Shown piece by piece: positions 35,418-52,712 of a stretch of DNA of 64,000 nt. The first letter of the stretch is position 1; every line of letters begins with the position of its first letter. Under the pieces are notes generated by a model that was not told where the DNA came from, made no database searches, and was given only the letters and a program-made list of their open reading frames with translations. This stretch comes from an uncultured Planctomycetaceae bacterium (GTDB lineage Bacteria; Planctomycetota; Planctomycetia; Planctomycetales; Planctomycetaceae), in assembly GCA_937916515.1 (NCBI GenBank), contig CALFSX010000063.1:1-64000 (forward strand). Reading direction: 5' to 3'. The translations under genes were made by a program, and so were the position numbers.

Positions 35418-36830
35418 CTACTCTTTTCTTCTCGCACGTCGGCGCTTTGGCGGAGCCGGTTGTTTCTTACTGGAAACTCTGCCGGCCTGGCGTTCGGTTG
35501 GGTCATACCAATCTGTGAGAAGGCCGCTGAGTTCCAGCACGAGATCGGGCTTCTTTGAAGCGAGGTTGACCTTCTCGTCAGGATCACCCTTCAGATCATA
35601 CAGCTGGGGGGCCCCACCTTCGGGCGCATATTTCATTTTTCCCGGCGCTCCATCGTAGGTCAGCAGCAGCTTGTCGTGGCCGCGGATCACCCAGCGATAC
35701 AGAAGCGACGCCTGGGGATTTTCGATGTCGGCGATGTCGTGGGCAAACGATTCGCCGAACAACGTATTTCGCTCGATGGCCTTTGCAGACTTCAGTTCCG
35801 GAAGAAGATTAAGCCCAGGGAAATCGTGCGGACCGGTTGCTCCAGCGGCTGCCAGAACGGTCGGGACAAAATCAATCGACGAACAAAGTTCAGGGCGGTC
35901 GGCTGCAGGAATGGTTCCCGGCCAGCGGAACATGATCGGCGTACGCGTTCCAAATTCGTTGGGGCTGCGTTTGGATCGTGGTGCGTAACTGCCTTTCTCG
36001 GTCTGAATCCAGCCGTTGTCGCAGACGTAGACGAAAATCGTGTTTTCTTTGAGGCCCGAGTCGTCGATGTGATTGACCAAAGCGCCGCAGGTTTCATCGA
36101 ACCATTCACACATCGCGTAATATTTCGCGATCCGTTCGTGAACTCCCTTCGCCGTGTACTTCTCAAGCAGCCGTGCCGGAGGAGTGTGCGGTGTATGTGG
36201 CATGAACGGTGCGTACCAAACAAAGAACGGCTTTTTTGCTGCCACGCTACGATCGATAAAATCGGTGACCGGCCCCAAACCATCGCGTCCGATCCTGAGA
36301 CCCGCATCGCCGTGTCGTCCGCCCTTGTTGGGAAACCCCTTGGTCATGCCCTCAGTAAATCCGCCTCGTTGATAAGAACCTTCCCACCACTTACCGCTCT
36401 GGTGGCTGACATAGCCCTTCTTCGCCAGCCACTGAGGAAGGGCACCAGTCTGATCAATGTGCGAGATGAGGAGTTCTCTCGCATCCTTGCCCGCCTTCTC
36501 AGCGTGAGCCTTGTTGGCAGGCGTGTTCGCCGGATCGTTTCCGGTCGTTTTGTTCTGGTGCGAATACAGGCCAGTGATCAGCGTCATCAACGAAGGCCGG
36601 CATAACGCAGTCGGAACATAACCTCGCCGGAACAACGCGCTTTCCGATGCGAGTTTGTCGAGATGAGGCGTTTCGATTTCCGGATGCCCCATGAATCCGT
36701 AATCGGTATAGCCCTGGTCATCGGACAGAATCAAAACGATGTTAGGCGGCTTCGATTCAGCGGCGGTCGCGGTTGATACGATCAAACAGAGTGGCAGCAG
36801 GCTGCGAATCATATTCATATTCTTCTTCAT
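35418..36830 (-). CDS. Exported sulfatase with CRPSL active-site motif
   Basis: A 470-residue S1-type sulfatase. Signal peptide residues 1-24 end ATA/AE. NIVLILSDDQGYTDYGFMGH supplies the metal ligands. The formylglycine motif reads CRPSL (77-81, within YVPTALCRPSLMTLITG): the final arginine of C-x-P-S-R is leucine. GYVSHQSGKWWEGSYQRGGF holds the active-site Lys with Trp in place of the usual His, and YVCDNGWIQTEKG replaces SDNG. These changes together suggest a distinct subgroup or altered maturation rather than a random mutation. The C-terminus is very basic (KKQPAPPKRRRARRKE). It follows the DUF1080/cytochrome gene, with repeat families A and B between. Confidence 0.88.
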   Translation of the reverse strand: MKKNMNMIRSLLPLCLIVSTATAAESKPPNIVLILSDDQGYTDYGFMGHPEIETPHLDKLASESALFRRGYVPTALCRPSLMTLITGLYSHQNKTTGNDPANTPANKAHAEKAGKDARELLISHIDQTGALPQWLAKKGYVSHQSGKWWEGSYQRGGFTEGMTKGFPNKGGRHGDAGLRIGRDGLGPVTDFIDRSVAAKKPFFVWYAPFMPHTPHTPPARLLEKYTAKGVHERIAKYYAMCEWFDETCGALVNHIDDSGLKENTIFVYVCDNGWIQTEKGSYAPRSKRSPNEFGTRTPIMFRWPGTIPAADRPELCSSIDFVPTVLAAAGATGPHDFPGLNLLPELKSAKAIERNTLFGESFAHDIADIENPQASLLYRWVIRGHDKLLLTYDGAPGKMKYAPEGGAPQLYDLKGDPDEKVNLASKKPDLVLELSGLLTDWYDPTERQAGRVSSKKQPAPPKRRRARRKE

Positions 36831-36939: not shown

Positions 36940-37006
36940 CTCGCACAAAGGCACGAAGCCACGAAGAAATTGGTCCCGCCTTTGTGTCTTCGTGCCTTTG
37001 TGTGAG
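36940..37006. repeat. Family B palindromic repeat
   Basis: CTCGCACAAAGGCACGAAGC... (36940-36965) is matched in inverse by 36981-37006 around a 15-base spacer. It is a second copy of the element at 19551-19626, again lying between two minus-strand genes. Confidence 0.85.
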
Positions 37007-37052
37007 ATTTTTGGGATTTGGTTGCGAGTGCGCCGCATCGGCGATCACTAAA

Positions 37053-40000
37053 TCATTTCTGAAAGTACTCGTGCGCGGAATCACCGCTGCTGATGAGGTA
37101 CGCGATTAGATCAAGAATTTCGCCCTCCGTCATCCGATTGAACAGGCCCACTGGCATCGGTGATGTCTTCGACACGATCAGTTCGTCAATTGTATTTCGA
37201 TCGATTGTGACCTGCTTGTTGGGGTCTGTGAGGTCTGTGTTAAGCACCAGAATATCGCCATCTTTTCTGACACCCAGGTTGACGATGACACCGGTGTGAA
37301 CAAGGCCTTCGTCTGTGAGGATTGACACGGCCGAAAATTGGTCGTTGATAACCTTGCTGGGATTGATCACCTGATCCAACAGATCATGGGCCGAATAGCG
37401 TCGGCCGGCAGTTGTCAGATCCGGTCCGGTCATGCCTCCCTGATTGCTGAAGCGATGGCAGGCGTAACATCCGGCTGCGGCAAACATCGCGCGGCCGTTG
37501 GAAAAGTCTCGTTGCTTGAGTTCTGTTCGAGCTGCCTGTGACAATTCATCCAGCGTCCATTTGGTTTCTTTTCGACCCGTGAAGATGGCACCGAGGTTTT
37601 CCAGCACGGACTTCTTCACCGGTTTCTTCGCGAGGATTGCTTTAAGCGACTCTGTTTGAGTTTCGCTAAGCGATGCCACGGCGTCGGTGCGGATAAACTC
37701 AATGAATTTTGCGAAGCTTGCTCCACCTCGGTAGTTTGAGGCTTTGAGGAACCACTCAAAGTAAGCGGTATGCAATTCATCGGTCCAACCGGATTTCAGC
37801 ATTCGGATCGAGCGGGCGTATTGCACTTGTTCTTCCTGAGTCGGAGCGGACCCGATCAGCGCCATGGCCTTTGTGGCCACGGTTGGTGACTGAAGGTAGG
37901 CAAGTGTTTCGCACAACAGCCAGTTCAGGTCGGCTGATTCGGATGGGAACAGCGGATCGACGGCTGCGATCAGTTTCTGAACGGTCGCATCATCGGGTCG
38001 GCCGAAGCGATTGAGGATGATTTGCAGTGTCCGCTGCAATGTCAGCTGGCTGGTCGCGTCCAGTTTCGGCAAGTCAATCGCCAGAAGAGCGGTCAGCATT
38101 CTGTCACGCATTTCCGTGTTGACCGGTGCGGCGGTACGTGTTCGGTGCTGTGGGCATTCGCCGCTGACTCGCGCCAGAGCCAGCAGAGCGACCACCTGTT
38201 TCTGCGGATCGGATTCGATCAGCGCTTTATCTGCCCATGTCCCTACGGGCTGATGCTCGATGGCTGTTCGCGCGGCAAAGCGGATGAATCGATCTGAACT
38301 CGACAAATGTGGCCATGCGGCTTTGATGGCCTCGGTGTTCTGTCCGCCGTGGAATACTTCTAAGTCGTGGCGTGTCTTTCTCGCTGTAGCCGAACTCGTC
38401 AAGAGTTCCGAAGCGCCCTGATCGGAGTCTGAAGTCTTGGCGACTTCAGCTACGGGTTCTGTCGATTCATCGCCGACGTATGTGACGCGGTAGAGGCCGG
38501 ACTGCACTTTTCGGCCGCCAATCGTGAAGTACATCGCGCCATCGCCTGGGTGAATAATCGCATCTGTGATCGGCAGCGGAGCGCCGGTGACGAATTCTTC
38601 TTTGGTTGCCGTATACGTCGAACCGTCCGGCTTCAAATGAACGGCGTAGAGTTTTCCCCAACTCCAGTCGAGTGCATACAACGCGTTCTGATACTTCGCG
38701 GGAAACTTCGCTCCGTAGCCGAAGGTTGTGCCCGTCGGCGACCCCGGTCCAATGTCCAGAACCGGCGGCAGGTTGTCGGCGTAGAAGACCGGGCGTTTAC
38801 CGGCACCATTTCGCCAACCGTATTCGGCTCCGCTAGTGACGTGGCAAATTCGTGTCGGACGATACCACGGCATATTAAAGTCGTATTCCATGTCGGCATC
38901 GTAAGTGAACAGTTCTCCGTCGCGATTGAAGGCGGCATCGAAAATGTTGCGAAACCCGTTGGCGTACGCTTCAAACGATTTTCCATCCCAATCGACTTTG
39001 TAAATTATGCCTCCCGGTGCAAGAACACCTTTGTTGTGCCCGCGCCCGTCGGGGAAACTCGGCAGAAGATGATCTTCGCCCCAGACATGTGGGACTTGCG
39101 ACGTTTCCGCCAGCTCCGTTGGCTTGGTGCTGTTGCCAGTGATCAGGAACAACGACTGGCCATCCGGGCTGGGCACGATGGCGTGAACTCCATGATCGCC
39201 TCGCGCGTCAAGAGTTCGCAATGCCTCGACCTTGTCCAGCTGATCGTCTCCATCGCTGTCCGTGACCCGGTACAGGCCTGACGGAATCTTCTTTTCGTAG
39301 TCATTGACCCCGACATACAAGGCGTCATCTTTCCAGACCATTCCGTTGACGGCTCGAATGTCGGCCGGAACAGGCTGCACATCGGCGGCACTCAGTGTTT
39401 TTCCATTCGCAGGCGGCGTTATTCGATACAACCCGCCGAATTGATCGCTGACCAGCAGCCGACCTTTGTTGTCGGTGCAGAGATTGACCCATGAACCGTG
39501 CGTATCGCCGGGAACGGAATACAGCAGTTCTGCTTTGAATCCCCTGGCAACTTTGATGCGGTCGATGGGAGTCGCCGTGTTGCCGGGCTTCACAACAACG
39601 GCATCGATCGCCGCCTTTGCCTTCTTGCCCTTCACATGACGCAGCCCGATGTCTTTGAATTCGACCGTCATTGGTTTTCCGGCGTGGAGCTGCAGCGCAA
39701 GAATTCCCTTTCGTTTTGCTTCCGGATGATTGTCCGTCAAATCCATCGTGGTGACGCCGTTGACCTGATGAATCTGCCGGTTCCCGACCGCGATGATGGT
39801 CAGTTCGTTCCATTCGGTGTCAACTAGCTTCTGATTCTTGTCGCCAACTTCACCGACAACTTTCGGCTTGCCGTCAGTCCCAACAACGACCTTCTGAAAT
39901 CGTTTGGCCACAATTCCGCGCCACTTTTCTGCATACAACATCCCGAAGAACTCGGGCTTCGGATGCAAGTCGGCCTGATAGCCTTTGGCGACAAAATCTT

Positions 40001-40310
40001 CAGGCTTGCCGACCAATTCGCTGCGGTATTGCACGCCCGAGTTATTCCCTGAAAAGCGAACCTTCGTTTTAAACACAAAGTCGCCAACGTCACCGCCCTG
40101 CCAGACGAGGAATGTATTGCCTTTGGTTGGCTTGTCTTTTGTCGTCTGGCCAAAGATGGCCCCGTCCTTAACGGACCAGAACTCCGTCTTTCCAGCCCAG
40201 CCGGAAAGGTCTTTGCCATTGAAGAGTGACTGGAATTCCTGAGCGCTGGCGGCAGAACAGAGAACAGGAATCAGGATGAGTACGGAGAGGAGTTTCATCG
40301 ATCTCGTCAT
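37053..40310 (-). CDS. DUF1080 / beta-propeller / cytochrome c fusion protein
   Basis: A 1085-residue exported multidomain protein. The chosen ATG (40310) gives a clean signal peptide ending SAASAQ; an upstream ATG at 40352 lies inside the duplicated leader cassette, and Met5 is also possible. Residues about 25-205 are DUF1080 (3-keto-disaccharide hydrolase-like, FQSLFNGKDLSGWAGKTEFW). Residues about 225-600 form a glucose-dehydrogenase-like propeller of the planctomycete membrane-bound dehydrogenase type. A helical HEAT-like part follows (about 640-900), then a c-type heme domain with CYACH at 948-952 and the downstream GPDLTTAGRRYS segment. It probably oxidises or cleaves sugars and passes electrons to its heme. 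Residues about 619-627 (VAEVAKTS) come from a family F repeat. Confidence 0.9.
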   Translation of the reverse strand: MTRSMKLLSVLILIPVLCSAASAQEFQSLFNGKDLSGWAGKTEFWSVKDGAIFGQTTKDKPTKGNTFLVWQGGDVGDFVFKTKVRFSGNNSGVQYRSELVGKPEDFVAKGYQADLHPKPEFFGMLYAEKWRGIVAKRFQKVVVGTDGKPKVVGEVGDKNQKLVDTEWNELTIIAVGNRQIHQVNGVTTMDLTDNHPEAKRKGILALQLHAGKPMTVEFKDIGLRHVKGKKAKAAIDAVVVKPGNTATPIDRIKVARGFKAELLYSVPGDTHGSWVNLCTDNKGRLLVSDQFGGLYRITPPANGKTLSAADVQPVPADIRAVNGMVWKDDALYVGVNDYEKKIPSGLYRVTDSDGDDQLDKVEALRTLDARGDHGVHAIVPSPDGQSLFLITGNSTKPTELAETSQVPHVWGEDHLLPSFPDGRGHNKGVLAPGGIIYKVDWDGKSFEAYANGFRNIFDAAFNRDGELFTYDADMEYDFNMPWYRPTRICHVTSGAEYGWRNGAGKRPVFYADNLPPVLDIGPGSPTGTTFGYGAKFPAKYQNALYALDWSWGKLYAVHLKPDGSTYTATKEEFVTGAPLPITDAIIHPGDGAMYFTIGGRKVQSGLYRVTYVGDESTEPVAEVAKTSDSDQGASELLTSSATARKTRHDLEVFHGGQNTEAIKAAWPHLSSSDRFIRFAARTAIEHQPVGTWADKALIESDPQKQVVALLALARVSGECPQHRTRTAAPVNTEMRDRMLTALLAIDLPKLDATSQLTLQRTLQIILNRFGRPDDATVQKLIAAVDPLFPSESADLNWLLCETLAYLQSPTVATKAMALIGSAPTQEEQVQYARSIRMLKSGWTDELHTAYFEWFLKASNYRGGASFAKFIEFIRTDAVASLSETQTESLKAILAKKPVKKSVLENLGAIFTGRKETKWTLDELSQAARTELKQRDFSNGRAMFAAAGCYACHRFSNQGGMTGPDLTTAGRRYSAHDLLDQVINPSKVINDQFSAVSILTDEGLVHTGVIVNLGVRKDGDILVLNTDLTDPNKQVTIDRNTIDELIVSKTSPMPVGLFNRMTEGEILDLIAYLISSGDSAHEYFQK
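38431..38456. repeat. Family F repeat inside a coding sequence
   Basis: GAAGTCTTGGCGACTTCAGC at 38431-38450 plus TACGGG is the reverse complement of a GTAGCTGAAGTCGCCAAGAC-type repeat, related to 35250-35277. It is translated as PVAEVAKTS between the propeller and HEAT-like parts of the DUF1080 fusion protein. Confidence 0.5.
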
Positions 40311-40428
40311 TTTTTCTGGTTCAGTGAATGGAGTTGTTTCGTGGCGCGGCATGGGAGCAAGAGGAATGCGTACCTAAAGAGTCGCTACCGGCCCGGGACG
40401 AATTCAACGCGGAAATTCTGAGAATTTA
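40300..40428. repeat. Duplicated 129-bp leader cassette, copy 1
   Basis: This stretch is nearly the same as 45607-45735 in the same orientation, with equal length. It covers the start codon of the DUF1080 gene (40308-40310) and everything up to a promoter-like element at 40396-40428. On the minus strand both copies share the frame ETTPFTEP(E/D)KMTRS. It looks like a promoter-plus-leader segment copied between two genes. Confidence 0.85.
40396..40428 (-). promoter_or_regulatory. Possible ECF-type promoter element in cassette copy 1
   Basis: The minus strand reads CTCAGAATTTCCGCGTTGAA then TTCGTCC, close to CTCAGAAAATTCTGCGTTAA then ATTTCGTGG before the ECF gene at 52536. It lies 86-118 bases upstream of the DUF1080 start. 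This suggests the same sigma control for both; similarity is the only evidence. Confidence 0.3.
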
Positions 40429-40565
40429 CAGATCGCGATTCAGGAAGCCCAAGACCAAGAACTACCCGGCGAATTTGGTGAGGACGGATGCGTTGGTGTC
40501 TTTGGCCGAATGGCACTGACTCTAGATTTCATCCTCACTTTGGGCCTGTGAATCTTTGCATTGTG

Positions 40566-40643
40566 AGCGGCACGGCGCTAGCCGCCGGTTCTTACGCGTT
40601 CGGTTTTTCCTGTAAATTCACCTACGGCTAGCGCCTTGTCGCT
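40566..40643. repeat. Family D palindromic repeat (GGCGCTAGCCG type)
   Basis: AGCGGCACGGCGCTAGCCG (40566-40584) is matched in inverse by CGGCTAGCGCCTTGTCGCT (40625-40643) with one mismatch around 40 bases. It lies in the gap between the DUF1501 stop (40669) and the DUF1080 gene. A related half-copy is translated inside the gene at 50408-51991. Apart from this, the cassette and the bases 40429-40565, which show nothing, the gap is empty. Confidence 0.8.
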
Positions 40644-40668
40644 CGCAAGAACCGATAAGGACCTGCGA

Positions 40669-41910
40669 TCAGGCGAACAACTCTTTGCGAGCTTCGCCAT
40701 CATCGGCCAGTTTGAAGGGGCGGCCACTGGGACTCTTTTCCTCATGCGCGAGGTCAATGCCGAGTCTCCAGGCGATCGTCGCGTTGAAATCGGTCACGTC
40801 CAGCACATCGTCGGCGGCTGTTTGGCCATCTTTCGTTGTGGTGCCGTAGATCTGTCCCGCCTTGACGCCAGCGCCGGCCAGCAGGCAGGTGAAACCGTCC
40901 GGGTGATGATCTCGGCCCTTGTTCGGATTCACGCCCGGCTTCCTGCCGAACTCCGTTGAGACAACGACCAGTGTCGAATCCAATAAACTCTTTTCTGTCA
41001 GGTGCGTTAGCAGCGACGACAAGCCTTTGTCCAGCTTGCCGGCGTTGGATGGCAACTTGCCGTAAAGGTCATCGTGATAATCCCAGCCACCTAATTCCAC
41101 TTTGACGTAACGCACGCCACGTTCAACAAGTCGACCTGCCAACATACAACTGCGACTGAATTCCTGCTTGTCATACAGACCAGCAATGTACTTGTTTTCA
41201 TTCTCAAGATCGAAGGCATCAATATCCTTCGAGTTCATGAACTTCAGCGAGCCCTTGTAGGTGTCGACATAGGCCCGCGTATCCTTGGTGCCATGCTCCT
41301 GATCGAAATCTCCATTCAACGAATCCAGAATACTGAGTCGCTTCTTGAACTTAGCTTTTTTGACTGCAGCATTCCGGTTCACAAAATCGATCCCGGTGCT
41401 CGTATTCCTGACGGGCAATGCCGCCCACTGCCCCGGGAAAAATCCGGCCGTCCCAGCACTGCCTTTGCCGATGCTGACAAAGTTTGGCAGGCTGTCCTGA
41501 TTGGTGGTTAAGCGTTTGCTGATCCAGGCTCCAAGTTCAGGATGTGTGATCGACGATCGCGGGTCGTAGCTGGTCAACATCTTGTAAATCCCCGCTGGGT
41601 GGGCACCCTGGTTGGACTTCATGGAATTGATAACCAGCAGCTTGTCCATCTGCTGAGCCAGCGTGGGGAAGTAATGACTCACCCGGACGCCGTCGACATT
41701 GCTTTTGATGATCTTTGAATCCGCAATGACCGCTTTGTCAACATCCATGTTAAAGCTGTCATACTGACTCAAGCCACCAGACAGAAAGATGTTGATCACC
41801 GACCTGGCTTTGGGTGCTTGCCCTGCTGCGGCTGCTGCGGAATTGGCATTCAAGAAAGGCAGAGACATCCCTGTCATGCCGACGCTGTAGATAAATTTTC
41901 GACGTTTCAT
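40669..41910 (-). CDS. DUF1501 exported protein
   Basis: A 413-residue DUF1501 protein. Its start MKRRKFIYSVGMTGMSLPFL resembles a twin-arginine signal. Family landmarks include INIFLSGGLSQYDSFNMDVD, VINSMKSNQGAHPAGIYKML, GRLVERGVRYVKVELGGWDY and the C-terminal GRDHHPDGFTCLLAGAGVKA. DUF1501 proteins are related to sulfatase/alkaline phosphatase-like folds and are almost always encoded next to DUF1549/DUF1553 proteins; here that partner lies five bases upstream. Their reaction is not established. The order EF-hand sulfatase, DUF1549/DUF1553, DUF1501, with an ATGA overlap and a five-base gap, points to one operon. Confidence 0.94.
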   Translation of the reverse strand: MKRRKFIYSVGMTGMSLPFLNANSAAAAAGQAPKARSVINIFLSGGLSQYDSFNMDVDKAVIADSKIIKSNVDGVRVSHYFPTLAQQMDKLLVINSMKSNQGAHPAGIYKMLTSYDPRSSITHPELGAWISKRLTTNQDSLPNFVSIGKGSAGTAGFFPGQWAALPVRNTSTGIDFVNRNAAVKKAKFKKRLSILDSLNGDFDQEHGTKDTRAYVDTYKGSLKFMNSKDIDAFDLENENKYIAGLYDKQEFSRSCMLAGRLVERGVRYVKVELGGWDYHDDLYGKLPSNAGKLDKGLSSLLTHLTEKSLLDSTLVVVSTEFGRKPGVNPNKGRDHHPDGFTCLLAGAGVKAGQIYGTTTKDGQTAADDVLDVTDFNATIAWRLGIDLAHEEKSPSGRPFKLADDGEARKELFA

Positions 41911-41914
41911 ATGT

Positions 41915-43780
41915 CTATCTGATAAATCGGAATTCGTTGGAGTTGAGCAGTGCCCAGATCAGGTCATCCTGATCGTTGGAAAACAATGGCTTCTCTGACT
42001 CTTTTGGCAAGCGACCCAAAATCGCCTTCCAAATGATTTCCATTCGCTTGTCAGGCCTGATGGCCCCATCCAGCTTGCGATGCAGATAGGCCTTGGGGTG
42101 CGTGGTGATTTCGTGTTCCAAATCGCCGTTCATCAGATACAGGATCTGAGGAATGTTGGGTTCCGCGTTTGCGCCATCAATTAAATCGCGATCGGATTTC
42201 CCCAACAACATGGCGACATCGTGCCCGCGGTCGGCTTTGCCGTAGGAAGAGACCCTCCATAGATGCTTAGGACCCACAGCTCCATTGCGTTTTCTTGCTT
42301 GATTTTCAACGCGATTTTGAAATGCGCCGCGGCCAGGTCCGTTGGTCGAATACTTCACGAAGTCCTTCACGCCCATCTCTTGTGATTGATCGTAAAAATG
42401 TGTGAAGCCATCCCACCGGAATTCCGTCGCCACATATCGATCGGGCGTTTCGGTCTTGAGGCTCAGGAATGAGTCCACGATGACTTCGGCAGAGATCCTT
42501 CGCACGATGGGGCCATCCAGAAGATAATCGGGGGCGTCTGCATTGAGCGCCAACGACTTGCTTTGGTAGGTCTTGCTGTTGAAAAGGACGCTCAAGAAGT
42601 TTTTGAGGTCATAATCCGTTGCTTTCATGATCGCGATTAGTTGCTGCGTCAATTCCGGATGGTCGCCCATTGCGTCTTGCGTTAAACCGCCCAGTGGTCC
42701 AACCAGTTCTGTGCCCATGACCTGACGCCACAAGCGATTCACCACGGATTTGGTGAACATGGGGTTCTCGGCAGAGACCATCCAGTCGGCCAGAGATTCG
42801 CGAGAATTGATCTGCGGTCCAAAGTTGTTCTTCCTGAGAGCATCGATGTTGGCTTTGGTGAGTTTGTGATCCAGCTTGGGCATTTTGCCAAACAGAACAT
42901 CGGCTTCCATGGCGTCAAAAGGTTTGCCATCTTCGTACTGATAATCATGCGGCAGTCGCATGAACCCGGTGCCGTTTCCATAAATCGCGGCATGCTTTAC
43001 ACGCAGAGATTCACGGTAGACGATCCATTCGTCAAAACTTTTGTTCTTCAGGATCTTGCGATCCCTGGCATACTTCTTCTTTTCCAGATCAGGTGTAGGA
43101 TCGACTCTCAAGTGAGTCTTCGAACTGAAGGCCGCCAGTTTGTAAAAGTCCTTCTGTGTCCAATCATCGAAGGGGTGATCATGACACTGAGCACATTCGA
43201 TGCTTAGCCCCAGAAAGGTTTTCACCGAATTGGCCAGATGATCCAGTGGCATGGGTTCACGGGCGTAGAACCCGGTGGCTCCGTTGCCAGGCTTGTAAAG
43301 TGGACCGCTGGCGTTGATCAGTTCATGAGCCATTTGATCGTACGGCTTGTTGCTGCGGAGGGCTTCCTTGATCCACTCCGAATAATTTCCGGGGTGGTGC
43401 AATTTGTCCCCGACGTATTTCACTCGAAACAGATCAGCCCAGTAGTTGTACCAGTGACTCGAGTAGCCTTTGGAGCTGAGCAGCTTGCAGATCAATCGCG
43501 AACGTTTGTCAGCCTGCTGGTCCGCGATAAAGTTATCCAATTCGTCGATCGTGGGAATGCGACCGACGGCATCCAGATAAACCCGGCGACAAAATGTGTA
43601 GTCATCGATGCCGGGGCGGCGCTCTTGACCGACCTGCTTCAACTGCCGGGCGACCAGTTGATCAATCTGTTGCGCATGCTCCAGGATCGCCGCTGGTTGA
43701 GCAAACGCAGCGGACGTCAAGATTGGGCTAAGCGCAAGTGTCAATAGGCACGCAATGATGGTTCGTTTTCCGTCGTTCAT
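41915..43780 (-). CDS. DUF1549/DUF1553 cytochrome-type protein
   Basis: A 621-residue exported protein. Signal peptide residues 1-27 end AFA. DUF1549 spans about 35-225 with DAVGRIPTIDELDNFIADQQ and the c-type heme site CAQCH at 196-200 followed by DHPFDDW. DUF1553 (about 315-560) shows SRESLADWMVSAENPMFTKS and VNRLWRQVMGTELVGPLGGL. No extra N-terminal cytochrome domain is present, so it is a short version of the family. The role is unproven but linked to the DUF1501 partner. The ATG overlaps the sulfatase stop by four bases (43777-43780), so translation is coupled to the EF-hand sulfatase. Confidence 0.94.
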   Translation of the reverse strand: MNDGKRTIIACLLTLALSPILTSAAFAQPAAILEHAQQIDQLVARQLKQVGQERRPGIDDYTFCRRVYLDAVGRIPTIDELDNFIADQQADKRSRLICKLLSSKGYSSHWYNYWADLFRVKYVGDKLHHPGNYSEWIKEALRSNKPYDQMAHELINASGPLYKPGNGATGFYAREPMPLDHLANSVKTFLGLSIECAQCHDHPFDDWTQKDFYKLAAFSSKTHLRVDPTPDLEKKKYARDRKILKNKSFDEWIVYRESLRVKHAAIYGNGTGFMRLPHDYQYEDGKPFDAMEADVLFGKMPKLDHKLTKANIDALRKNNFGPQINSRESLADWMVSAENPMFTKSVVNRLWRQVMGTELVGPLGGLTQDAMGDHPELTQQLIAIMKATDYDLKNFLSVLFNSKTYQSKSLALNADAPDYLLDGPIVRRISAEVIVDSFLSLKTETPDRYVATEFRWDGFTHFYDQSQEMGVKDFVKYSTNGPGRGAFQNRVENQARKRNGAVGPKHLWRVSSYGKADRGHDVAMLLGKSDRDLIDGANAEPNIPQILYLMNGDLEHEITTHPKAYLHRKLDGAIRPDKRMEIIWKAILGRLPKESEKPLFSNDQDDLIWALLNSNEFRFIR

Positions 43781-45480
43781 TTCGTTTGCTCTTTCAATTC
43801 ATCGAGCTGCAGCTTGCCATCGCCATTGGAGTCGATCTGATTGAATCGCTTGGTCAATGCGGGAACGTTGCGACCTTTGGGGTTGCCGATGTATTCTTGC
43901 AGTGTGATCGATCCATCACCATTGCGATCTCGATTTTTGACGAACTGATCCGGCGACCGGCGTTTGGGAATGGGTGTGGGTGTCGTCTTCGTAGGTTTCG
44001 GCTTCTCTTTTTGCAGAACGCCGGCACTTCCACCGCCGGGATACTGTGTGTTGATATTGGAAAGATGATCGATCAGTTCTGTCTTGAGCGAGGTGTAAAC
44101 TTCAGGGAGCTTTGTCCGGAGATCATTCTTCTCGGCGACGTCTTTGCTGAGGTCGAAGAGGGAAAGATCGGTGCGTTTCAGTTCAGCAATCATCGCGGCC
44201 CAATCCGGCGAGTGCTCTCGGCCGATTTGGCTCCATAGTTTGTAGTCACCTTTTCGCAGGCCGATGTTTCCCCATAGCTCGAAGATCATCGTTCGCTTTG
44301 CGATGGTTGTCTTGCCGGCGGACAGCATGTGTGGGATCAAAGATATCCCGCGAACCGGGTTCTTGCCATTGATTTTCGGAACGGGAATCGCGGCTGAGTC
44401 GAGCAAGGTCGCAAACACATCGCAATGCATGACCTGCTGATTTGACACCATGCCTTGAGGCAGTTGGGCTTTCCAATTCATTAGGAATGGCACGTTCAGC
44501 CCGCCCTGATACGTTGTCGCCTTACCTCCTGTAAACGGTCCGTTGTTGCCGGGAAACCTGCCGCCCGCTGCGGCTTCTTCCATCTTGCAGCCTCCGTTGT
44601 CGCTGACGAAGACGACGAGTGTGTTATCGGCGATGTCCAATTCATCCAACAGGTCGACCAACTGGCCAATGTTGTAATCCATGTGTTCGAGAATGGCGAC
44701 ATAATCGCTGCGCAGAAAACTGACGCCTCGATCGAGTGCTTTCTTCACCCACGCTTCCGGCGCGGAGGCGGGTTTCGATTTGTCGACTCGAAGAGGACCG
44801 TGCACGGCGTTGTAGGCGAGGTAACAGAAGAACGGATCATCCCTGGCCGCGTTTTTACGAATGAATTTTTCAGCCCAGCCGGTAAACAACTCGGTCGCGT
44901 GTCCTTTGGAAGTCGTGTCCGGTTCGCGGTTGTGTATGAACTTCGACCGACCTTCCTTAATCCAATACGGGTGAGCTCCTCCCAGAAAACCGCGAAACTG
45001 ATCGAAGCCACGGTCGTTCGGAATTTCCCCTTCAAGCTCGCCCATATGCCATTTGCCGAACGCTCCCGTTTTGTAACCGGCTGCGGAGAGATGTTCCGAT
45101 AGCATTTTCACGTCACGCTTGATGCCGCGATATCCTGGCGATCCGAGTGGCTGTTTGCCGGGGCCTCGCCACATGCCGTTTTCCGTCGAATATTGACCGG
45201 TGAACATGCACGCTCGCGATGGTCCGCAAAGCGGGACGGTGTGGTAGTTCGTAAACCGTACGCCTTTCGCGGCCAGAGCTTCCAACGTCGGAAGTCGCAC
45301 TTCGGTCTTGTCCCAGTTCGACGGCAAGTCACCCCAGCCATGATCGTCGGAAACGATAAGCAGGATATTGGGCCGAGTGGACGAGGTTTGCGAACGCGCG
45401 GGCGAACGCTGTGGTTCGTCAGCGCGGACGATGCACGGGATCAGTAACAATGCTGCGACGACAGCTGTCGGAATTCTCAT
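43777..45480 (-). CDS. Exported sulfatase with C-terminal EF-hand pair
   Basis: A 567-residue sulfatase. The start at 45480 is preceded by AAGGAA at normal spacing and gives a signal peptide MRIPTAVVAALLLIPCIVRA; a longer frame begins at 45528. ILLIVSDDHGWGDLPSNWDK carries the metal ligands. C85 in CGPSR is the formylglycine site. GAFGKWHMGELEGEIPNDRG is the active-site Lys/His block. After a Lys/Pro/Thr-rich linker, two EF-hand loops follow: DRNGDGSITLQE and DSNGDGKLQLDE. Calcium binding by the tail may stabilise or anchor the enzyme. A damaged relative with the same tail lies at 63193-63562. The stop overlaps the DUF1549/DUF1553 start. Confidence 0.93.
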   Translation of the reverse strand: MRIPTAVVAALLLIPCIVRADEPQRSPARSQTSSTRPNILLIVSDDHGWGDLPSNWDKTEVRLPTLEALAAKGVRFTNYHTVPLCGPSRACMFTGQYSTENGMWRGPGKQPLGSPGYRGIKRDVKMLSEHLSAAGYKTGAFGKWHMGELEGEIPNDRGFDQFRGFLGGAHPYWIKEGRSKFIHNREPDTTSKGHATELFTGWAEKFIRKNAARDDPFFCYLAYNAVHGPLRVDKSKPASAPEAWVKKALDRGVSFLRSDYVAILEHMDYNIGQLVDLLDELDIADNTLVVFVSDNGGCKMEEAAAGGRFPGNNGPFTGGKATTYQGGLNVPFLMNWKAQLPQGMVSNQQVMHCDVFATLLDSAAIPVPKINGKNPVRGISLIPHMLSAGKTTIAKRTMIFELWGNIGLRKGDYKLWSQIGREHSPDWAAMIAELKRTDLSLFDLSKDVAEKNDLRTKLPEVYTSLKTELIDHLSNINTQYPGGGSAGVLQKEKPKPTKTTPTPIPKRRSPDQFVKNRDRNGDGSITLQEYIGNPKGRNVPALTKRFNQIDSNGDGKLQLDELKEQTK

Positions 45481-45524
45481 TGCAATTTCCTTCTTCTCTT
45501 CTCTTCTCTTGATCTTAATCCTAC

Positions 45525-45617
45525 TCATAATCCGTCATCCTCATCCTGAATCGAATCCGGCTCGATGATCCAACTCGTTTGTTCGAACGTCAGTTGACCG
45601 AACTGAGATCTCGTCAT
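45525..45617 (-). other. Possible 30-codon leader ORF from the duplicated cassette
   Basis: ATG at 45615-45617 opens a frame that starts MTRS, like the DUF1080 gene in cassette copy 1, then diverges (QFGQLTFEQTSW and on). It ends in a TGA at 45525-45527 that overlaps an in-frame ATG of the sulfatase (45526-45528) as ATGA. It may be a relic of a truncated gene or a coupled leader. No function can be given. Confidence 0.3.
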
Positions 45618-45735
45618 TTTGTCTGGTTCAGTGAATGGAGTTGTTTCGCGGTAAGCCACGAGAGCAAGAGGAACGCGTACCTAAAGAGTCGCTACCGGCG
45701 CGGGACGAATTCAACGCGGAATTCCTGAGAATTTC
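45607..45735. repeat. Duplicated 129-bp leader cassette, copy 2
   Basis: Near-identical to 40300-40428, same orientation and length. It lies between the stop of the sulfatase at 45776 and the EF-hand sulfatase. Its promoter-like half (45702-45735) carries CTCAGGAATTCCGCGTTGAA on the minus strand. It accounts for most of the 295-bp gap 45481-45775. Confidence 0.85.
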
Positions 45736-45775: not shown

Positions 45776-47233
45776 TCAGAACAGCGGTTCGCTCATTTCA
45801 CTGTTCATCTTTTCCCAGATCGTCAGTAATTCCGTGACGCGTTCCGGGTTGGTCTCGGCCAGATTTGATTCTTCGGAGATGTCCTTCGACAGGTTGTAGA
45901 GTTCCCAATTTGCTTTACCGGGATCGAACTTGCGGCCCATGCGTAGGAGTTTCCAGTCGCCGTGGCGCAGAGCGGTCTTTCCACCCTGACGCCAGAACAG
46001 TGTTTCGTGCGGTCGGCTTTTGTCTTTGCCGGTGAGATATGGAAGCAGATTCACGCCTTCGACCTGCTTCGGCATTTTCGCTCCCGCGACCGTGGACGCC
46101 GTGGCGAAGATATCCATCGAACTGACCGGCTTGTGATAGACTTTGCCCGCAGGCAGCTTGCCCTTCCACTGGACCATGAAGGGAATTCGGATCGCGCCTT
46201 CATACATCTGCCCTTTCTCACCACGTAACGGCAGGTTGGAAGACGTAAGTTCTCGGGTCGGGCCGCCGTTGTCACTCAGGAAAAACACAAGCGTGTTTTC
46301 TTCCAGGCCCGACATGCGCAGTTGCTCCATGACGGCGCCGACGCTGTCATCCATGTTCGCCAGCATCGCCGCGAAGATGCGGCGATGGATGTCTTCGATG
46401 TGAGCGAACTTCTTCATATAAGCGTCCGCACCCTGCAGCGGGCTGTGGACGGCGTTATAGGCGAGGTACAGAAAGAACGGCTTGTCATCGTGGCGGTTGA
46501 TGAAATCGACGGCTTCTCGGGTGAGTGCATCAGTGAGATATTCGGTTTCCACCACAGGCTGGCCGCCGCGCACGATCGGGTTGTTGGCGTCGTAGTCCGG
46601 TTCGTCGTTGCCCATATGCGTTCCGTAGATCAGACCCTTCTTCCCGGTCCAACGGCCTTTGCCACCGCCGGGCAGTGTTCTGCGACGCAGCATCGTCGTT
46701 ACGCCTTTGTAAGGCGGCGGCACAAAGTAATGGCCTTCGTGAGTGAAACCGAAAAACTCGTCAAAGCCGTGGCGGAAGGGGTGATACTTTGCGCCTCCGC
46801 CCTGATGCCACTTGCCAATCAGGCCGGTCGTATACCCGGCGTCATGCAGAGTCTCGCCAATCGTGATTTCCTCAGGCGGAAGACCGAATCCAGGTTCTTC
46901 ATTGCGAGCGCCGGTAGGATTGAACTCGTAGCCAAAGCGTGTCGGCGTACGTCCGGTAAGCAGACCCGCACGAGACGGGCTGCAATTCGGACCGGCAACG
47001 TAGCCGGAAGTAAACCGCACTCCATTGGCTGCAATCGAATCGATATGCGGTGTGGGAATTTCGGGATTCCCCTGGCAGCTGAGTTCTCCATAGCCGAGGT
47101 CATCTGCAAACAGCACAACGATGTTCGGTCGCTGAACGGCAGTATTGGAGGATCCAACTTCCTGTGCATTGGCGGTGGCAACAAGAACTGGGAGCAGCAG
47201 CAGTGTCGAGAGCGATTCTATGGATCTGGTCAT
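45776..47233 (-). CDS. Exported sulfatase (arylsulfatase A-like)
   Basis: A 485-residue S1 sulfatase. The chosen ATG (47233) starts MTRSIESLSTLLLLPVLVAT, a signal peptide that resembles that of the DUF1080 fusion protein in sequence; an upstream ATG would add 24 residues. IVVLFADDLGYGELSCQGNP gives the metal ligands. C84 in CSPSR is the formylglycine site. GLIGKWHQGGGAKYHPFRHG is the active-site Lys/His block, and FFLSDNGGPTRELTSSN the Asp-Asn block. The end SWKLLRMGRK- and SEESNLAETNPERVTEL region is normal. It lies 69 bp after the next sulfatase upstream and 295 bp before the EF-hand one. Confidence 0.94.
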   Translation of the reverse strand: MTRSIESLSTLLLLPVLVATANAQEVGSSNTAVQRPNIVVLFADDLGYGELSCQGNPEIPTPHIDSIAANGVRFTSGYVAGPNCSPSRAGLLTGRTPTRFGYEFNPTGARNEEPGFGLPPEEITIGETLHDAGYTTGLIGKWHQGGGAKYHPFRHGFDEFFGFTHEGHYFVPPPYKGVTTMLRRRTLPGGGKGRWTGKKGLIYGTHMGNDEPDYDANNPIVRGGQPVVETEYLTDALTREAVDFINRHDDKPFFLYLAYNAVHSPLQGADAYMKKFAHIEDIHRRIFAAMLANMDDSVGAVMEQLRMSGLEENTLVFFLSDNGGPTRELTSSNLPLRGEKGQMYEGAIRIPFMVQWKGKLPAGKVYHKPVSSMDIFATASTVAGAKMPKQVEGVNLLPYLTGKDKSRPHETLFWRQGGKTALRHGDWKLLRMGRKFDPGKANWELYNLSKDISEESNLAETNPERVTELLTIWEKMNSEMSEPLF

Positions 47234-47301
47234 GTTTGCCTTATTCAGCGTTGATGTGTTTTCAATGGTTGTGGGTAGTAAAAGCAGGACGGGCCACCCG
47301 A

Positions 47302-48804
47302 TCAATCCGGGATCGCTTTATTCGGATCAATGTCCTGTCCCTCCCAATTGGCGACCCCGTCTTTATAGATGAGTATCCTTTTGGCGCTGCCTGCCACCGG
47401 TTTCCTGTTGATTTTTGGTAGCTGCTTTCTCAATGCCAGTTTTTCGGCGGCGTAGCGGGAATCAGCAGCCAGGTTGGTGAACTCATTGGGATCTTTCACC
47501 ATGTCGTAAAGTTCCTCCGAGCCATCCGCATATCGAATATAGCGCCACCGCTCGGTTCGTAGACCGTGGTTGTCGTGATTGTCCGTCGTAATCGCGGGGC
47601 GAGTTCTTGGCGCTTTTGCATCCTGCAATTGAGGCACCAGGCTGAGGCCTTCGATGTGTTCAGGAATTTCCAGCCCACACAACTCACTCAGCGTGGGATA
47701 CATATCCAATAGCTCCGCCGGCCGATTGGACTTTTGTCCTTCCTTTACGCCCGGTCCAGCAAAGATCAAAGGCACTCGAGCCGAGCGATCCCAAAGCGTG
47801 TTCTTTCCTGTGATTTGCTTTTCTCCCAGGTGATAACCGTGGTCGGACCAAAGCACGATGATCGTGTCGTCAGACAATTGGTTTCGCTCCAACGCATCGA
47901 GTACCCGCCCTACCTGGCTATCGACAAAACTCACACTGGCGAGGTAGGCCTGCACAATTTTGATTTGCTCACCTTCCTGCAGCAAAAACTCTTGACGCGG
48001 CTCTGGCAACTTCCAGTGGAGGTACCAGCTAAATCGCGGCGTATCGTTGCGATCATCCAAAAGCATGCGAGGCAGAATGACCTCATCTTCGGGATACAGA
48101 TCAAACCACTTCTGAGTGGCAAGCAACGGCACGTGGGGCAGAGAAAAACCGACCGCTATGAAGAACGGGTCTTCTGGTTTTTGATCCAGCTGCTCGACAG
48201 CCCAACTCGCTGTTTTCCAGTCCTTGTGATCCGATTCCTTGTAGGGATAAACAGCCCAGTCCATTCCACGGCCACCACGTGGAGTCGCCACGCGTTTCTC
48301 TTTCGGACTCAATCCCGGTTCCGTCTCGCCGACCACATCGAACTCTTTCACGCCCATGCTATTCCAATTTCGACCATGGTAAATCTTTCCCACCGTATAA
48401 GTCGTGTACCCAACTTTCGAAAAATGCTGTGGCAGTGTCACAAGTCCCTTCAATTCATCCACCGTCCGAAACCACGGTGCCAGGGCATACACTCCGGTCG
48501 TCGAAGGTCGCAGCCCAGTCATCACACTGGTGCGAGATGGATTACAGATCGGTGCCTGACAATGAGCGTTGGTGAACAAGGTCCCACGCTGCGCCAACGC
48601 GTCGATATTCGGAGTCTTCACCTGCGGATGACGATCCAAACAGCCCACCCAGTCATTCAAATCATCGATCGCAATGAACAGGACGTTTGGGGAACGCGAC
48701 GTTCCATTCGAAAGCGGCCCCGCCGCGGATGTTGCGATTGGCGAGAAAAGCAAGGCAAGAACGGCAAGGAATAGACAGCGAAAATTCATGGGGTTGGACT
48801 TCAT
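47302..48804 (-). CDS. Exported sulfatase (iduronate-2-sulfatase-like)
   Basis: A 500-residue sulfatase. Met1 or Met6 could be the start; both give a signal peptide (FLAVLALLFSPIATSAAG). VLFIAIDDLNDWVGCLDRHP has the metal-binding pair. C88 in CNPSR is the formylglycine site. LWSDHGYHLGEKQITGKNTL and RTERWRYIRYADGSEELYDM are typical of this subgroup. It is the middle of three sulfatases in a row (45776, 47302, 48907) after the ECF/FecR pair, each separated by about 70-100 bp. A sulfated glycan is the likely target; similar layout with differing pockets suggests attack on different sulfate positions. Confidence 0.95.
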   Translation of the reverse strand: MKSNPMNFRCLFLAVLALLFSPIATSAAGPLSNGTSRSPNVLFIAIDDLNDWVGCLDRHPQVKTPNIDALAQRGTLFTNAHCQAPICNPSRTSVMTGLRPSTTGVYALAPWFRTVDELKGLVTLPQHFSKVGYTTYTVGKIYHGRNWNSMGVKEFDVVGETEPGLSPKEKRVATPRGGRGMDWAVYPYKESDHKDWKTASWAVEQLDQKPEDPFFIAVGFSLPHVPLLATQKWFDLYPEDEVILPRMLLDDRNDTPRFSWYLHWKLPEPRQEFLLQEGEQIKIVQAYLASVSFVDSQVGRVLDALERNQLSDDTIIVLWSDHGYHLGEKQITGKNTLWDRSARVPLIFAGPGVKEGQKSNRPAELLDMYPTLSELCGLEIPEHIEGLSLVPQLQDAKAPRTRPAITTDNHDNHGLRTERWRYIRYADGSEELYDMVKDPNEFTNLAADSRYAAEKLALRKQLPKINRKPVAGSAKRILIYKDGVANWEGQDIDPNKAIPD

Positions 48805-48906: not shown

Positions 48907-50334
48907 TTACTTTGCACGCGCACGGGATCGTTCTGATTTGGTTTTGAATTCAGGCGCTGCATTTTCGGGCAGCCAGCGGGCGAGCTGATCCCGCTTTGCC
49001 TTGTGAGCCGGGTCGCTGGCGAGGTTGTGGAACTCGTCGGGGTCGTTTCGATGGTTGTACAGCTCTTCGGCTCCATCTTCATAAACCACCAATCGCCAGT
49101 CTCGACTGCGAATGGAGTGATTGCCGAAGTACGAAGATGTAATCGCCGGGCGTTCCCTGAGTGTTGTGGGATCGTTGAGTTGAGCAACCAGGGAAACTCC
49201 TTCGAGGTGCCGATTCGCAGGCAAGCCGCACAGTTCGACCAGCGTCGGGTAGATGTCGATCAGACTGGCCGGTTCGGCGCATGTCTTGCCCGGCTTGATA
49301 CCGGCTCCGGCAAAAAGGAGCGGAACTCGCGTCGACTCTTCCCACAGCGTGCGCTTGGCCCAGTGCTGTTTCTCACCAAGATGGAATCCGTGATCGCTCC
49401 ACAGAACGATTACCGTGTTGTCGGCATGCGGGCTGGACTTCAGAGCATCCACAACAATACCCACGCAATGGTCGACGAAGCTGATCGATGCCAGATAGGC
49501 ATGTGTCAGGCTCCTCTGTTTGCCGTCTCTGATGACCTCGGCATGAGTCGGAGCAACGGCATAGTCGTTGATGCTAAGAAAGTTCTTCGGAAGATCATCG
49601 AGGTCCGACTTCGGGTTCCGGGGCAGCATCAACGAATTCGCTTCGTAAAGACTGAACCACTTCGGGGGCACAAACAGAGGAACATGTGGTCGAAAGAAAC
49701 CAACTGTCATGAAGAACGGTTTGCCGGAATCCTGCCGCAGCGCTTTGGCCGCGTTCTGCGCCAATTCAAAGTCAGCCATCTCAGCGTCGGTCTCTGGATA
49801 CGCTCCCCAGTCCCACGCCCCACTCCACGAAGTGGGGCGGCTCATCGGTTTGCGAGGCCTGGGACTTTTCCTGCGACCAAGCGATTGGTCGACGTCACCG
49901 GCTAACCTTCCACCGAAACCGTGATGCAACACCTTTCCGCCGGACAGCGTGTAATAACCATTGTCTTTGAAGTAACGCTGCATCGTGGGAACGTCGGTCA
50001 GAGCAGGCAGCTCCTCGTACTTCGGCCCGATTTCATAACTGCCGTGCGTCGTTGCCGCGAGTCCGGACATCACGCTGACACGTGAGCAAGTACAGACTGG
50101 CACGGCACAATGGGCGTTGGTGAAAATTTGACCCCGCTTTGCCAACGCGTCCATGTGAGGTGTCAACGCTTGAGGGTGCCCTCCAAGAAACCCAACCCAG
50201 TCATTGAGATCGTCGATGCAGATCATCACGATGTTCGGACTGGGTGCCTCGGCATAGCATTCCCCGGTGAGGAGAATCGAAACTAAGGCAATCGTCGTTG
50301 CCGGCACGGATCTGATTGTTCGTCTATTCGCCAT
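48907..50334 (-). CDS. Exported sulfatase with CTCSR active-site motif
   Basis: A 475-residue iduronate-2-sulfatase-like protein. The signal peptide covers about residues 1-28 (ALVSILLTGECYA). NIVMICIDDLNDWVGFLGGH holds the metal ligands. The formylglycine site reads CTCSR (81-85, after NAHCAVPV), so the proline of C-x-P-S-R is cysteine; the codon at that place is TGC. LWSDHGFHLGEKQHWAKRTL and RDWRLVVYEDGAEELYNHRN are otherwise normal, so the rest of the active site looks intact. It is the first gene after the ECF/FecR pair (73 bp), suggesting direct control by that sigma system. Confidence 0.92.
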   Translation of the reverse strand: MANRRTIRSVPATTIALVSILLTGECYAEAPSPNIVMICIDDLNDWVGFLGGHPQALTPHMDALAKRGQIFTNAHCAVPVCTCSRVSVMSGLAATTHGSYEIGPKYEELPALTDVPTMQRYFKDNGYYTLSGGKVLHHGFGGRLAGDVDQSLGRRKSPRPRKPMSRPTSWSGAWDWGAYPETDAEMADFELAQNAAKALRQDSGKPFFMTVGFFRPHVPLFVPPKWFSLYEANSLMLPRNPKSDLDDLPKNFLSINDYAVAPTHAEVIRDGKQRSLTHAYLASISFVDHCVGIVVDALKSSPHADNTVIVLWSDHGFHLGEKQHWAKRTLWEESTRVPLLFAGAGIKPGKTCAEPASLIDIYPTLVELCGLPANRHLEGVSLVAQLNDPTTLRERPAITSSYFGNHSIRSRDWRLVVYEDGAEELYNHRNDPDEFHNLASDPAHKAKRDQLARWLPENAAPEFKTKSERSRARAK

Positions 50335-50407: not shown

Positions 50408-51991
50408 TCACTTTGCCACTTTCCACACAGCGTCTTCTGCCACCGAAAACGACCCCATCGTCTTTTCTTCCAAGTGACTGATCAGTCGCTCGAACTCGGC
50501 AACCTCGCCTGATCCTGGAGCTTCGGTCAGAAAGAGTGGCCACTTCGGCTGGCCCCAGAATGTTTCTTCGTAGGTGTCGCCTTCCCGCTCGACGAGCAGC
50601 AGACCCGATGTGATATTGCCACCGACGTCTCCGAAAAGGAGATCGAGCTCGACCGAGCCGCCGCTAAGTTCGATCCACTCACTGCAGGCGAAACCGGCTG
50701 GTGCAATCAAACACGGCAAAGCGGGATTGTCAGTTCGCGGGATGCCAAGTTTCTTAAATGAAGAATCACGCCGCGATCCTTCAAAGACAGGCTTTCCATC
50801 AATAGCAACCAGCAGATGATTGTCGGCGTAACCCCAGAATCGATAGCGTCCCGGCCGAGGCGGAAGAACCTGACCGTGATACCACGCCATCCAGCCGCCT
50901 TCGCGTGAGTAAGGTGTCAGACCCGTGCGGTCAGGGAATTCGTGAAAGGCTCCTGCGATGCCACAAAAACTGAGCGGCTCACCTTGCTGGAATGCTTCCA
51001 CGCAAGTTCGATCCCGAAAATCAGACTGGATCAGCGGCAATAGACCCTGCCCGATCACATCCTTATCCAGCCTTTCCTTAGCCAGCGTGGTTGAGGTACC
51101 GTAACCAAGAACCACTCCGCTGAAGGAACCGCCACCTGGATTCGTTGCCGAAAGCGATAACTCGGGTAATGCCAGGGAACGCCGTGAAGGCGAACGCTTC
51201 TTCAGTTTTCCGTTTCGACCGTACTTGGCGAATTCCCCTTCGTGCATCAGGCCTTCCGATGCGCCCTCGTGATCGTCGACAGAGATCAGCCCGTCAAGAA
51301 CAAGAACTTCCGAACCATCCGAGCTTGCCGTGACAACAAAGCTTGTTCCCAAGTCGACAAACTTTCGCTCTGCAGTATCCACAACGAACCCCACTCCCTG
51401 CGGTGGGACGACCAGCTTGACCTGCCCCTCATGCAGCAACACACGCTGGTTGCTGTTGAGCTTCAGCTTGAGCGGAGCTGTCGCAATGACATGCACGCCG
51501 GTTTCGCGAAACGCCAGTTCGATCAGGCCTTGTTGCATGACCAGATCTTCGTCGGCGAACAACTCGACCCCGTCGACGACAATTCGATCCTCGCCAGCCG
51601 TGCCGTCGCCCTCGATCCGAATCACTCTGGCAATGCCGCGATCAGCTTCAGTCGGCGTGCCTTCCGGAACTCGGAACCAGCCGAATGCACCAACGACCAT
51701 CGCAGTCGCGATTGCGGTCAGTGCCAGCCAGAGTGGCCGGGCTCCAATCGAGCTACCAACGCCAGGGGCGACCATGCTTTCACCCGCGGCTAGCGCCGTC
51801 GGCTCACTGACCTTACCGAACGCCTCGTCGGCAGCGATCTCCTGCCACTTCGCGTCGATCGTGGCGAGCGACCGGAGCGCAGCCCGAGCCTCCGCATTGC
51901 CGCGCAATAGTTCCTCCAGCGATTCAAGTTCCTCCGCAGTGATCGCGCCGTCCAGATATCGATGCAACAGGTTGAGTTCGTCTTCATTCAT
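50408..51991 (-). CDS. FecR-domain membrane ECF partner with PA14-like outer domain
   Basis: A 527-residue protein. ATG at 51989-51991 overlaps the sigma-factor TGA (ATGA); a longer upstream frame is rejected for this reason. Residues 1-50 (LLHRYLDGAITAEELESLEE) are the cytoplasmic helical region. A membrane helix follows (PLWLALTAIATAMVVGAFGW). FecR (about 150-245) includes IELAFRETGVHVIATAPLKL and the FVDLGTSFVV strand. The C-terminal half has a PA14-like carbohydrate-binding domain (PGRYRFWGYADNHLLVAIDG). Residues 63-70 (EPTALAAG) are encoded by a family D repeat half-copy. It should link an external polysaccharide cue to the sigma factor and so to the sulfatases downstream. Confidence 0.85.
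   Translation of the reverse strand: MNEDELNLLHRYLDGAITAEELESLEELLRGNAEARAALRSLATIDAKWQEIAADEAFGKVSEPTALAAGESMVAPGVGSSIGARPLWLALTAIATAMVVGAFGWFRVPEGTPTEADRGIARVIRIEGDGTAGEDRIVVDGVELFADEDLVMQQGLIELAFRETGVHVIATAPLKLKLNSNQRVLLHEGQVKLVVPPQGVGFVVDTAERKFVDLGTSFVVTASSDGSEVLVLDGLISVDDHEGASEGLMHEGEFAKYGRNGKLKKRSPSRRSLALPELSLSATNPGGGSFSGVVLGYGTSTTLAKERLDKDVIGQGLLPLIQSDFRDRTCVEAFQQGEPLSFCGIAGAFHEFPDRTGLTPYSREGGWMAWYHGQVLPPRPGRYRFWGYADNHLLVAIDGKPVFEGSRRDSSFKKLGIPRTDNPALPCLIAPAGFACSEWIELSGGSVELDLLFGDVGGNITSGLLLVEREGDTYEETFWGQPKWPLFLTEAPGSGEVAEFERLISHLEEKTMGSFSVAEDAVWKVAK
51782..51806. repeat. Family D half-repeat inside a coding sequence
   Basis: ACCCGCGGCTAGCGCCGTCG at 51782-51801 plus GCTCA contains the GGCTAGCGCC core of the family D palindrome at 40566-40643. 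It is translated on the minus strand as EPTALAAG within the FecR-type protein, just before its membrane helix. Confidence 0.5.
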
Positions 51992-52536
51992 GATTCTGCT
52001 CCCGCGAGCGTCTTTTCCATACAGCGATGCAACTCCTTCCGGGTCCGCGCGAGGAGCTGATACAGCGAGCCTTCCGTGCGTTTGAGCTGTGCAGCCATCT
52101 TGCGGATCGTTGTGTCCCGCGCATAAGCCGCCACCGCCAGTTCGCGTCGCTCCCGCGGCAGTTTTTCGATGCAGTGATCCAGCGCCTGAAGTTGTTGGTG
52201 ACGCAACGGCAACTCCTGAGCCCCCTCGTCGGCCAGTAATTCCACGATATCCTCCGCCAGCACCAGCCGATCCCGGGCATACCGACGACGAGCCGAAAGC
52301 AATTCGTAGCGGGCTATCAGACAGGCCCACGGCCCAAACGCCGAATGGTCATCAAGCGTCGAAAACTTCCGCAAAGCCGCGACGCTGACTTCCTGCATCA
52401 CGTCGTCCACTTCCTGAGCTTTCGGGCAGCAGGACCGGACATAGGCGCGCAGCTCCGGCTCATGATGGGTCCACAGCCGCAGAAAAGTTTCGTGCGGGTC
52501 AGGTGTGTTGTCTTCCTGATTGGAAATGCCTGCCAT
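51988..52536 (-). CDS. ECF RNA polymerase sigma factor
   Basis: A 182-residue planctomycete-type ECF factor. AGGAG lies five bases before the ATG. Region 2 shows KAQEVDDVMQEVSVAALRKF and PWACLIARYELLSARRRYAR. Region 4 shows DTTIRKMAAQLKRTEGSLYQ followed by LLARTRKELHRCMEKTL. The gene is coupled by ATGA to its FecR/PA14-type partner and heads the long sulfatase run of block 2. A possible promoter element lies at 52567-52599, 31-63 bases upstream of the ATG, fitting autoregulation. Confidence 0.95.
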   Translation of the reverse strand: MAGISNQEDNTPDPHETFLRLWTHHEPELRAYVRSCCPKAQEVDDVMQEVSVAALRKFSTLDDHSAFGPWACLIARYELLSARRRYARDRLVLAEDIVELLADEGAQELPLRHQQLQALDHCIEKLPRERRELAVAAYARDTTIRKMAAQLKRTEGSLYQLLARTRKELHRCMEKTLAGAES

Positions 52537-52566
52537 TGTTGCTCCTCACGTGTCCGCTTCCACTCC

Positions 52567-52599
52567 CCACGAAATTTAACGCAGAATTTTCTGAGTTTT
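52567..52599 (-). promoter_or_regulatory. Possible ECF-type promoter element
   Basis: The minus strand reads AAAACTCAGAAAATTCTGCG followed by TTAAATTTCGTGG. The CTCAGAAwTTCyGCGTTrAA core recurs in the duplicated cassettes at 40396-40428 and 45702-45735, and partly at 29374-29410. Recurrence upstream of ECF genes and a structural gene suggests a shared sigma target. No transcript data support it. Confidence 0.3.
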
Positions 52600-52673: not shown

Positions 52674-52712
52674 AAGGAACTGATGTAGCCAGGCAGGCCG
52701 CGCTCGAGTCCG

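Follow-up and report, generated by a model that had tools for sequence, protein, structure and literature searches.

A putative promoter and leader occurring twice in a planctomycete sulfatase cluster and their likely link to a neighbouring ECF sigma factor

Sulfatases and ECF sigma factors are both numerous in planctomycetes and, to our knowledge, it is largely unknown which of these sigma factors controls which genes. The window analysed here, a stretch of 64,000 nucleotides, holds a sulfated-sugar gene cluster on its minus strand, including an ECF sigma factor gene and a FecR-domain gene (Table 1). Within this cluster a segment of 128 bp occurs twice in the same orientation, with 116 of 128 bases identical (BLAST: 90.6% identity, E 3e-47, 40427-40300 against 45734-45607). 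The two copies, A and B, lie 5.3 kb apart at one locus, A before the DUF1080/cytochrome fusion gene and B before the gene for an EF-hand sulfatase, SulfEF. A sequence-only reading had described such a cassette in front of these two genes, with a length of 129 bp, and both the repeat and its placement were borne out. No third copy was found in the whole genome (8.33 Mb, 343 contigs), which answers that reading's proposal to search for more.

Table 1. Features of the locus, with positions in the window
Feature	Position	Strand	Remarks
Sulfatase, next in conserved order	33767..35194	-	
Sulfatase after DUF1080	35418..36830	-	adjacency conserved
3-keto-disaccharide hydrolase (DUF1080)/PVC heme-binding fusion	37053..40310	-	
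Copy A: putative promoter, 5' leader and first 11 nt of DUF1080 gene	40300..40427	-	ancestral position (from synteny)
Core site in A, putative promoter	40383..40410	-	GCGTTGAAT-N14-TAGCG; exact match; matrix 26.7, window rank 2
DUF1501 protein, last gene of added block	40669..41910	-	
PSCyt2/PSD1 (DUF1549/DUF1553) protein	41915..43780	-	
SulfEF, EF-hand sulfatase, first gene of added block	43777..45480	-	Pfam
Copy B: before SulfEF-PSCyt2/PSD1-DUF1501 operon	45607..45734	-	derived (from synteny)
Core site in B, putative promoter	45690..45717	-	exact match; matrix 21.7, window rank 3
Sulf5, sulfatase, left neighbour of B	45776..47305	-	Pfam
Sulf6, sulfatase	47302..48804	-	Pfam
Sulf7, sulfatase	48907..50334	-	Pfam
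FecR-domain protein, probable membrane anti-sigma/sensor	50408..51991	-	FecR 2.5e-5; start overlaps ECF stop
ECF sigma factor, TIGR02989 (Rhodopirellula/Verrucomicrobium family)	51988..52536	-	160.7 bits, cut-off 124.55; Sigma70_r2
Core site of ECF gene, putative autoregulation	52555..52582	-	exact match; matrix 42.0, window rank 1

The copies had been said to match almost base for base. This holds for most of the repeat, but 7 of the 12 differences fall within one stretch of 20 bp (p 0.012, simulation); an upstream in-frame ATG of A (40352) lies in this patch and is GTG in B. The 3' edge is sharp (40300/45607), with identity at chance level immediately beyond it, and in A it falls 11 nt inside the likely DUF1080 start ATGACGAGATC. 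The 5' edge is gradual, identity decaying across about 30 nt. An orthologue at locus L009, with CTG at the position of the downstream ATG, suggests ATG 40310 as the start of the DUF1080 fusion. For SulfEF, we infer a start at 45480 from a signal-peptide-like beginning and a 5-bp indel upstream in the copy of genome G047. A possible leader ORF of 30 codons (45617-45528) begins in B at the copied DUF1080 start codon, and its stop overlaps an ATG in frame with SulfEF.

An RNA element at A or B was rejected, as neither has an Rfam match or an unusually stable fold (z-scores 0.26 and 0.93), and so was a sigma-70 promoter, none being present on the right strand. Elsewhere in the window, short inverted and direct repeats of REP type (CACAAAGGCACGAAGACACAAAG) lie at 19546-19577 and 36939-37009 and also follow DUF1080 in locus L059, a repeat of about 80 bp (GTAGGCCGGATCAAGGAGCGAAGCGACG) has three copies (59781-59860, 60022-60102 and 62322-62396), and a second EF-hand sulfatase gene has left a remnant of its 3' end at 63196-63540, with 72% protein identity to the SulfEF C-terminus.

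A site shared with the ECF gene

The key to the likely function of A and B lies in their likeness to the sequence that precedes the ECF gene. This likeness, pointed out in the sequence-only reading, is real: all three have the common site GCGTTRAAT-N11-YGGWAGCG. Searched genome-wide with fixed spacing, the exact pattern GCGTTRAAT-N14-WAGCG has three matches in 8.33 Mb, before the ECF gene, in B and in A, all on one strand. Matches with one mismatch are about as frequent as those of a reversed control pattern (17 in all versus 14) and are therefore not counted as targets. When two mismatches are allowed, one further site stands out by matrix score (26.5), on contig C42.

The matrix was trained solely on ECF promoters from elsewhere, eight orthologous ones in seven other genomes, and is thus not circular; its G047 sequence comes from a separate ECF locus, 91% identical. 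In the window it places the ECF promoter first, A second and B third, the score of B being modest. The fourth-best match in the window scores 16.2, the best of 20 random windows with the same dinucleotide make-up 15.3, and outside the window the contig yields no site above 10.

In 8 of 170 family genomes the ECF protein has a close orthologue (75-100% identity), and each of these eight carries a high-scoring site, either at the ECF gene itself or at a neighbouring gene. Across the 170 genomes, exact-pattern matches score 21.7 to 49.6 where the ECF gene is present and below 17 where it is not, a comparison of exact matches that weaker sites may escape. The sites precede ECF, DUF1080, cytochrome (PSCyt) and DUF1552 genes, and a SulfEF orthologue at L010 has its own version (score 27.0); those corresponding to A precede DUF1080 in L011, L166, L059, L012 and L016. 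The targets (ECF, DUF1080, PSCyt, DUF1552) are functionally coherent. Three short contigs (L111, L145 and G047:C452) of G047, a genome from a different genus, match parts of the window at 99-100% identity; they may reflect bin contamination or very recent transfer, and these copies are therefore not treated as independent evidence. That the window's whole contig is a misbinned piece of that other genus was rejected, its far end best matching the window's own genus.

Among 23 sites compared, CGT in the first block and GG.A in the second never vary. At 14-17 nt before CGTT there is a weaker GGAA-like element, of which 16 of the 23 sites have at least three of the four bases, against 4.8 expected from shuffles. 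GCGTT may be the -35 element and GGWAGCG the -10, as favoured by the constant spacing and information content; or the weaker GGAA may be the -35 and CGTT the -10, as favoured by resemblance to the textbook ECF promoter, with AAC in the -35 and CGT in the -10 (PMC8103513). No published motif for TIGR02989 sigma factors was found in the open literature, and literature searches returned no paper on promoters of this ECF-FecR family.

Ancestry of the two copies

The order P-ECF-FecR-P-DUF1080, P being the promoter, occurs in strain SV_7m_r (L011), which we take to be a Stieleria, and in a congener of the window (G019, L166); in L011 two sulfatases follow DUF1080, as in the window. In G049 (L059), P-DUF1080 comes immediately after the orthologue of Sulf5. 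The window has DUF1080 adjoining A and Sulf5 adjoining B, with SulfEF-PSCyt2/PSD1-DUF1501 between them. The left flank of B is homologous to the Sulf5-promoter-DUF1080 junction of L059, and where A and B differ, L059 agrees with A more often. Judged from the synteny in L011, L166 and L059 and from this greater agreement, the presumed promoter in its ancestral place before DUF1080 is A, and B is the derived copy. The SulfEF-PSCyt2-DUF1501 block would have come between Sulf5 and DUF1080, and B would have arisen with its arrival, by local duplication of A's promoter and leader. For the PSCyt2/PSD1 protein, no close relative was found among 170 genomes of the family or 392 of the phylum; this agrees with a newcomer without proving transfer.

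A second history, which we regard as quite possible though short of probable, involves no block inserted with a copied promoter. Tandem duplication of promoter-DUF1080, perhaps with SulfEF, would have been followed by deletion of the first DUF1080 gene, leaving B before SulfEF with the same promoter function. G049 carries promoter-DUF1080 twice and has DUF1080 next to SulfEF, and there are documented cases of promoter capture through tandem duplication or deletion (PMC11111574). However, the DNA between B and SulfEF showed no remnant of DUF1080, and the two promoter copies of G049 have diverged more from each other than A has from B. Insertion with duplication, and tandem duplication followed by deletion, are both compatible with the DNA.

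The same topology is seen again nearby. The 3'-terminal part of a sulfatase gene, at 58337-58500, has a direct repeat at 52696-52849 (154/164 bp, 92%), with 142 of 154 aligned bases identical and a 10-nt gap. Between these repeats lie DUF1552-PSCyt-FG-GAP genes, and the ECF promoter is next. Two blocks of the window (40.4-45.6 kb and 52.9-58.3 kb) are each enclosed by direct repeats of similar length and divergence (91-92%); no terminal sequences common to the two three-gene blocks were found. It seems unlikely that these planctomycete loci recurrently add three-gene cassettes while duplicating 130-160 bp of target at the joint, but if true, cassettes could arrive with the local ECF promoter already in front of them.

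The suggestion that a sigma gene's 5' end was the source of the cassette did not hold for A and B. Outside the core their leaders are unlike ECF 5' ends (p 0.66 for A and 0.68 for B against shuffled sequences), which, with A in the ancestral DUF1080 position, leaves such an origin unsupported. As a positive control, the cytochrome-gene leaders of G048 and G049 do resemble ECF 5' ends (p < 0.001), and their promoters were copied from the 5' end of the ECF gene, together with its first codons ATGGCTGACCA. On C42 of the window genome, a decayed ECF 5' half with a stop comes after such a promoter. The latter heads another sulfatase/PSCyt operon containing a second ECF-FecR pair (L168 = G000:C42:1-14000; L179), whose intact ECF gene lies downstream, near the far end of the operon, without a promoter of its own. 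Together, the G048 and G049 leaders and the decayed half on C42 indicate that capture of the sigma gene's own 5' end occurs in this group, though not at A and B.

Likely role of A and B

The preferred reading of A and B is as promoters controlled by a putatively autoregulated ECF-FecR pair. The ECF protein has 182 aa and only sigma2 and sigma4 domains, Sigma70_r2 being clear and r4_2 marginal (25.0 against a cut-off of 25.7). The same motif precedes the sigma gene and its presumed targets and co-occurs with the sigma gene across genomes, as in an autoregulated regulon. The claim of a copied, ready-made ECF-controlled promoter is well supported by this comparative evidence, namely pattern rarity, matrix and co-occurrence, and we consider it likely that both are copies of a promoter that this sigma factor recognises, A being ancestral and B the product of local duplication.

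We propose that the FecR-domain partner would act as anti-sigma factor and hold the sigma factor until an extracellular signal, probably a glycan, arrives; its PA14 match is weak (0.0085, below cut-off). The freed sigma factor would then bind its own promoter and start transcription of ECF-FecR-Sulf7-Sulf6-Sulf5. It would likewise act at promoter B, for SulfEF-PSCyt2-DUF1501, and at promoter A, for DUF1080-sulfatase-sulfatase. The duplication would in this way put the added block under the same sigma factor.

The site could instead be the operator of another regulator of the locus, with A and B a copied operator plus leader. Its length and tripartite build are unusual, GGWAGCG has a high G/C content for a -10 box, and a transcription-factor operator with the same distribution would look alike. 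Yet from genome to genome the site goes together with this particular ECF, whose own gene has it conserved in front, and no other regulator gene was identified in the same part of the cluster; we find an operator improbable. Far less plausible is a mobile promoter or dispersed repeat (REP/MITE-like) inserted twice. One short sequence does stand before two unrelated genes, but the near-identical copies number two in the genome, at one locus rather than at unrelated loci, and by comparison with L059 each is contiguous with its own ancestral flank. It is hardly credible that what is kept is a stretch of protein (ETTPFTEPEKMTRS), either a conserved leader peptide or an N-terminal coding part. Both copies do have the frame open, over about 41 nt with one change, but the upstream ATG is lost in B, where the frame soon ends, and the peptide is not kept in L059 or L009. 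The frame ETTPFTEP(E/D)KMTRS, correctly reported for both copies, is probably incidental, since the orthologue points to ATG 40310 and relatives' leaders lack the peptide.

Comparison with known systems

With A and B read as ECF promoters, the sequence points to one specific sigma factor, to the promoter sequence that it likely uses and to its likely targets, all of which are directly testable. The locus illustrates how degradation genes can enter a sigma regulon, either by copying a resident promoter or by taking the sigma gene's 5' end; here an added three-gene group has its own copy of its neighbour's apparent promoter. Matus-Garcia et al. 2012 reportedly described 'promoter propagation', in which a ready promoter likewise comes to stand before a newly arrived gene. 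The same outcome is known from promoter capture by local duplication or deletion (PMC11111574), whereas here the captured promoter would be that of a specific local sigma factor and would keep the newcomer within the regulon.

Autoregulated ECF regulons (PMC8103513) share with this locus a small sigma2/sigma4 protein adjoining a FecR-type partner, a target motif in the sigma gene's own promoter and few, local target operons. They differ in the motif, which here is GCGTTRAAT / YGGWAGCG at fixed spacing and not clearly AAC / CGT. Within the TIGR02989 Sig-70_gvs1 sigma factors, the ECF protein scores above the curated cut-off and differs in no tested feature. Among polysaccharide-sensing alternative sigma systems, sigma-I in cellulolytic clostridia (PMC6056542) is reported to be likewise tied to extracellular polysaccharide and to drive degradation genes; by comparison, our locus has another sigma family, a FecR partner with a weak PA14 match and a glycan signal that is presumed. 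The A/B locus is, for the most part, a new and well-delimited example of two things already known, the ECF regulon and promoter capture by local duplication.
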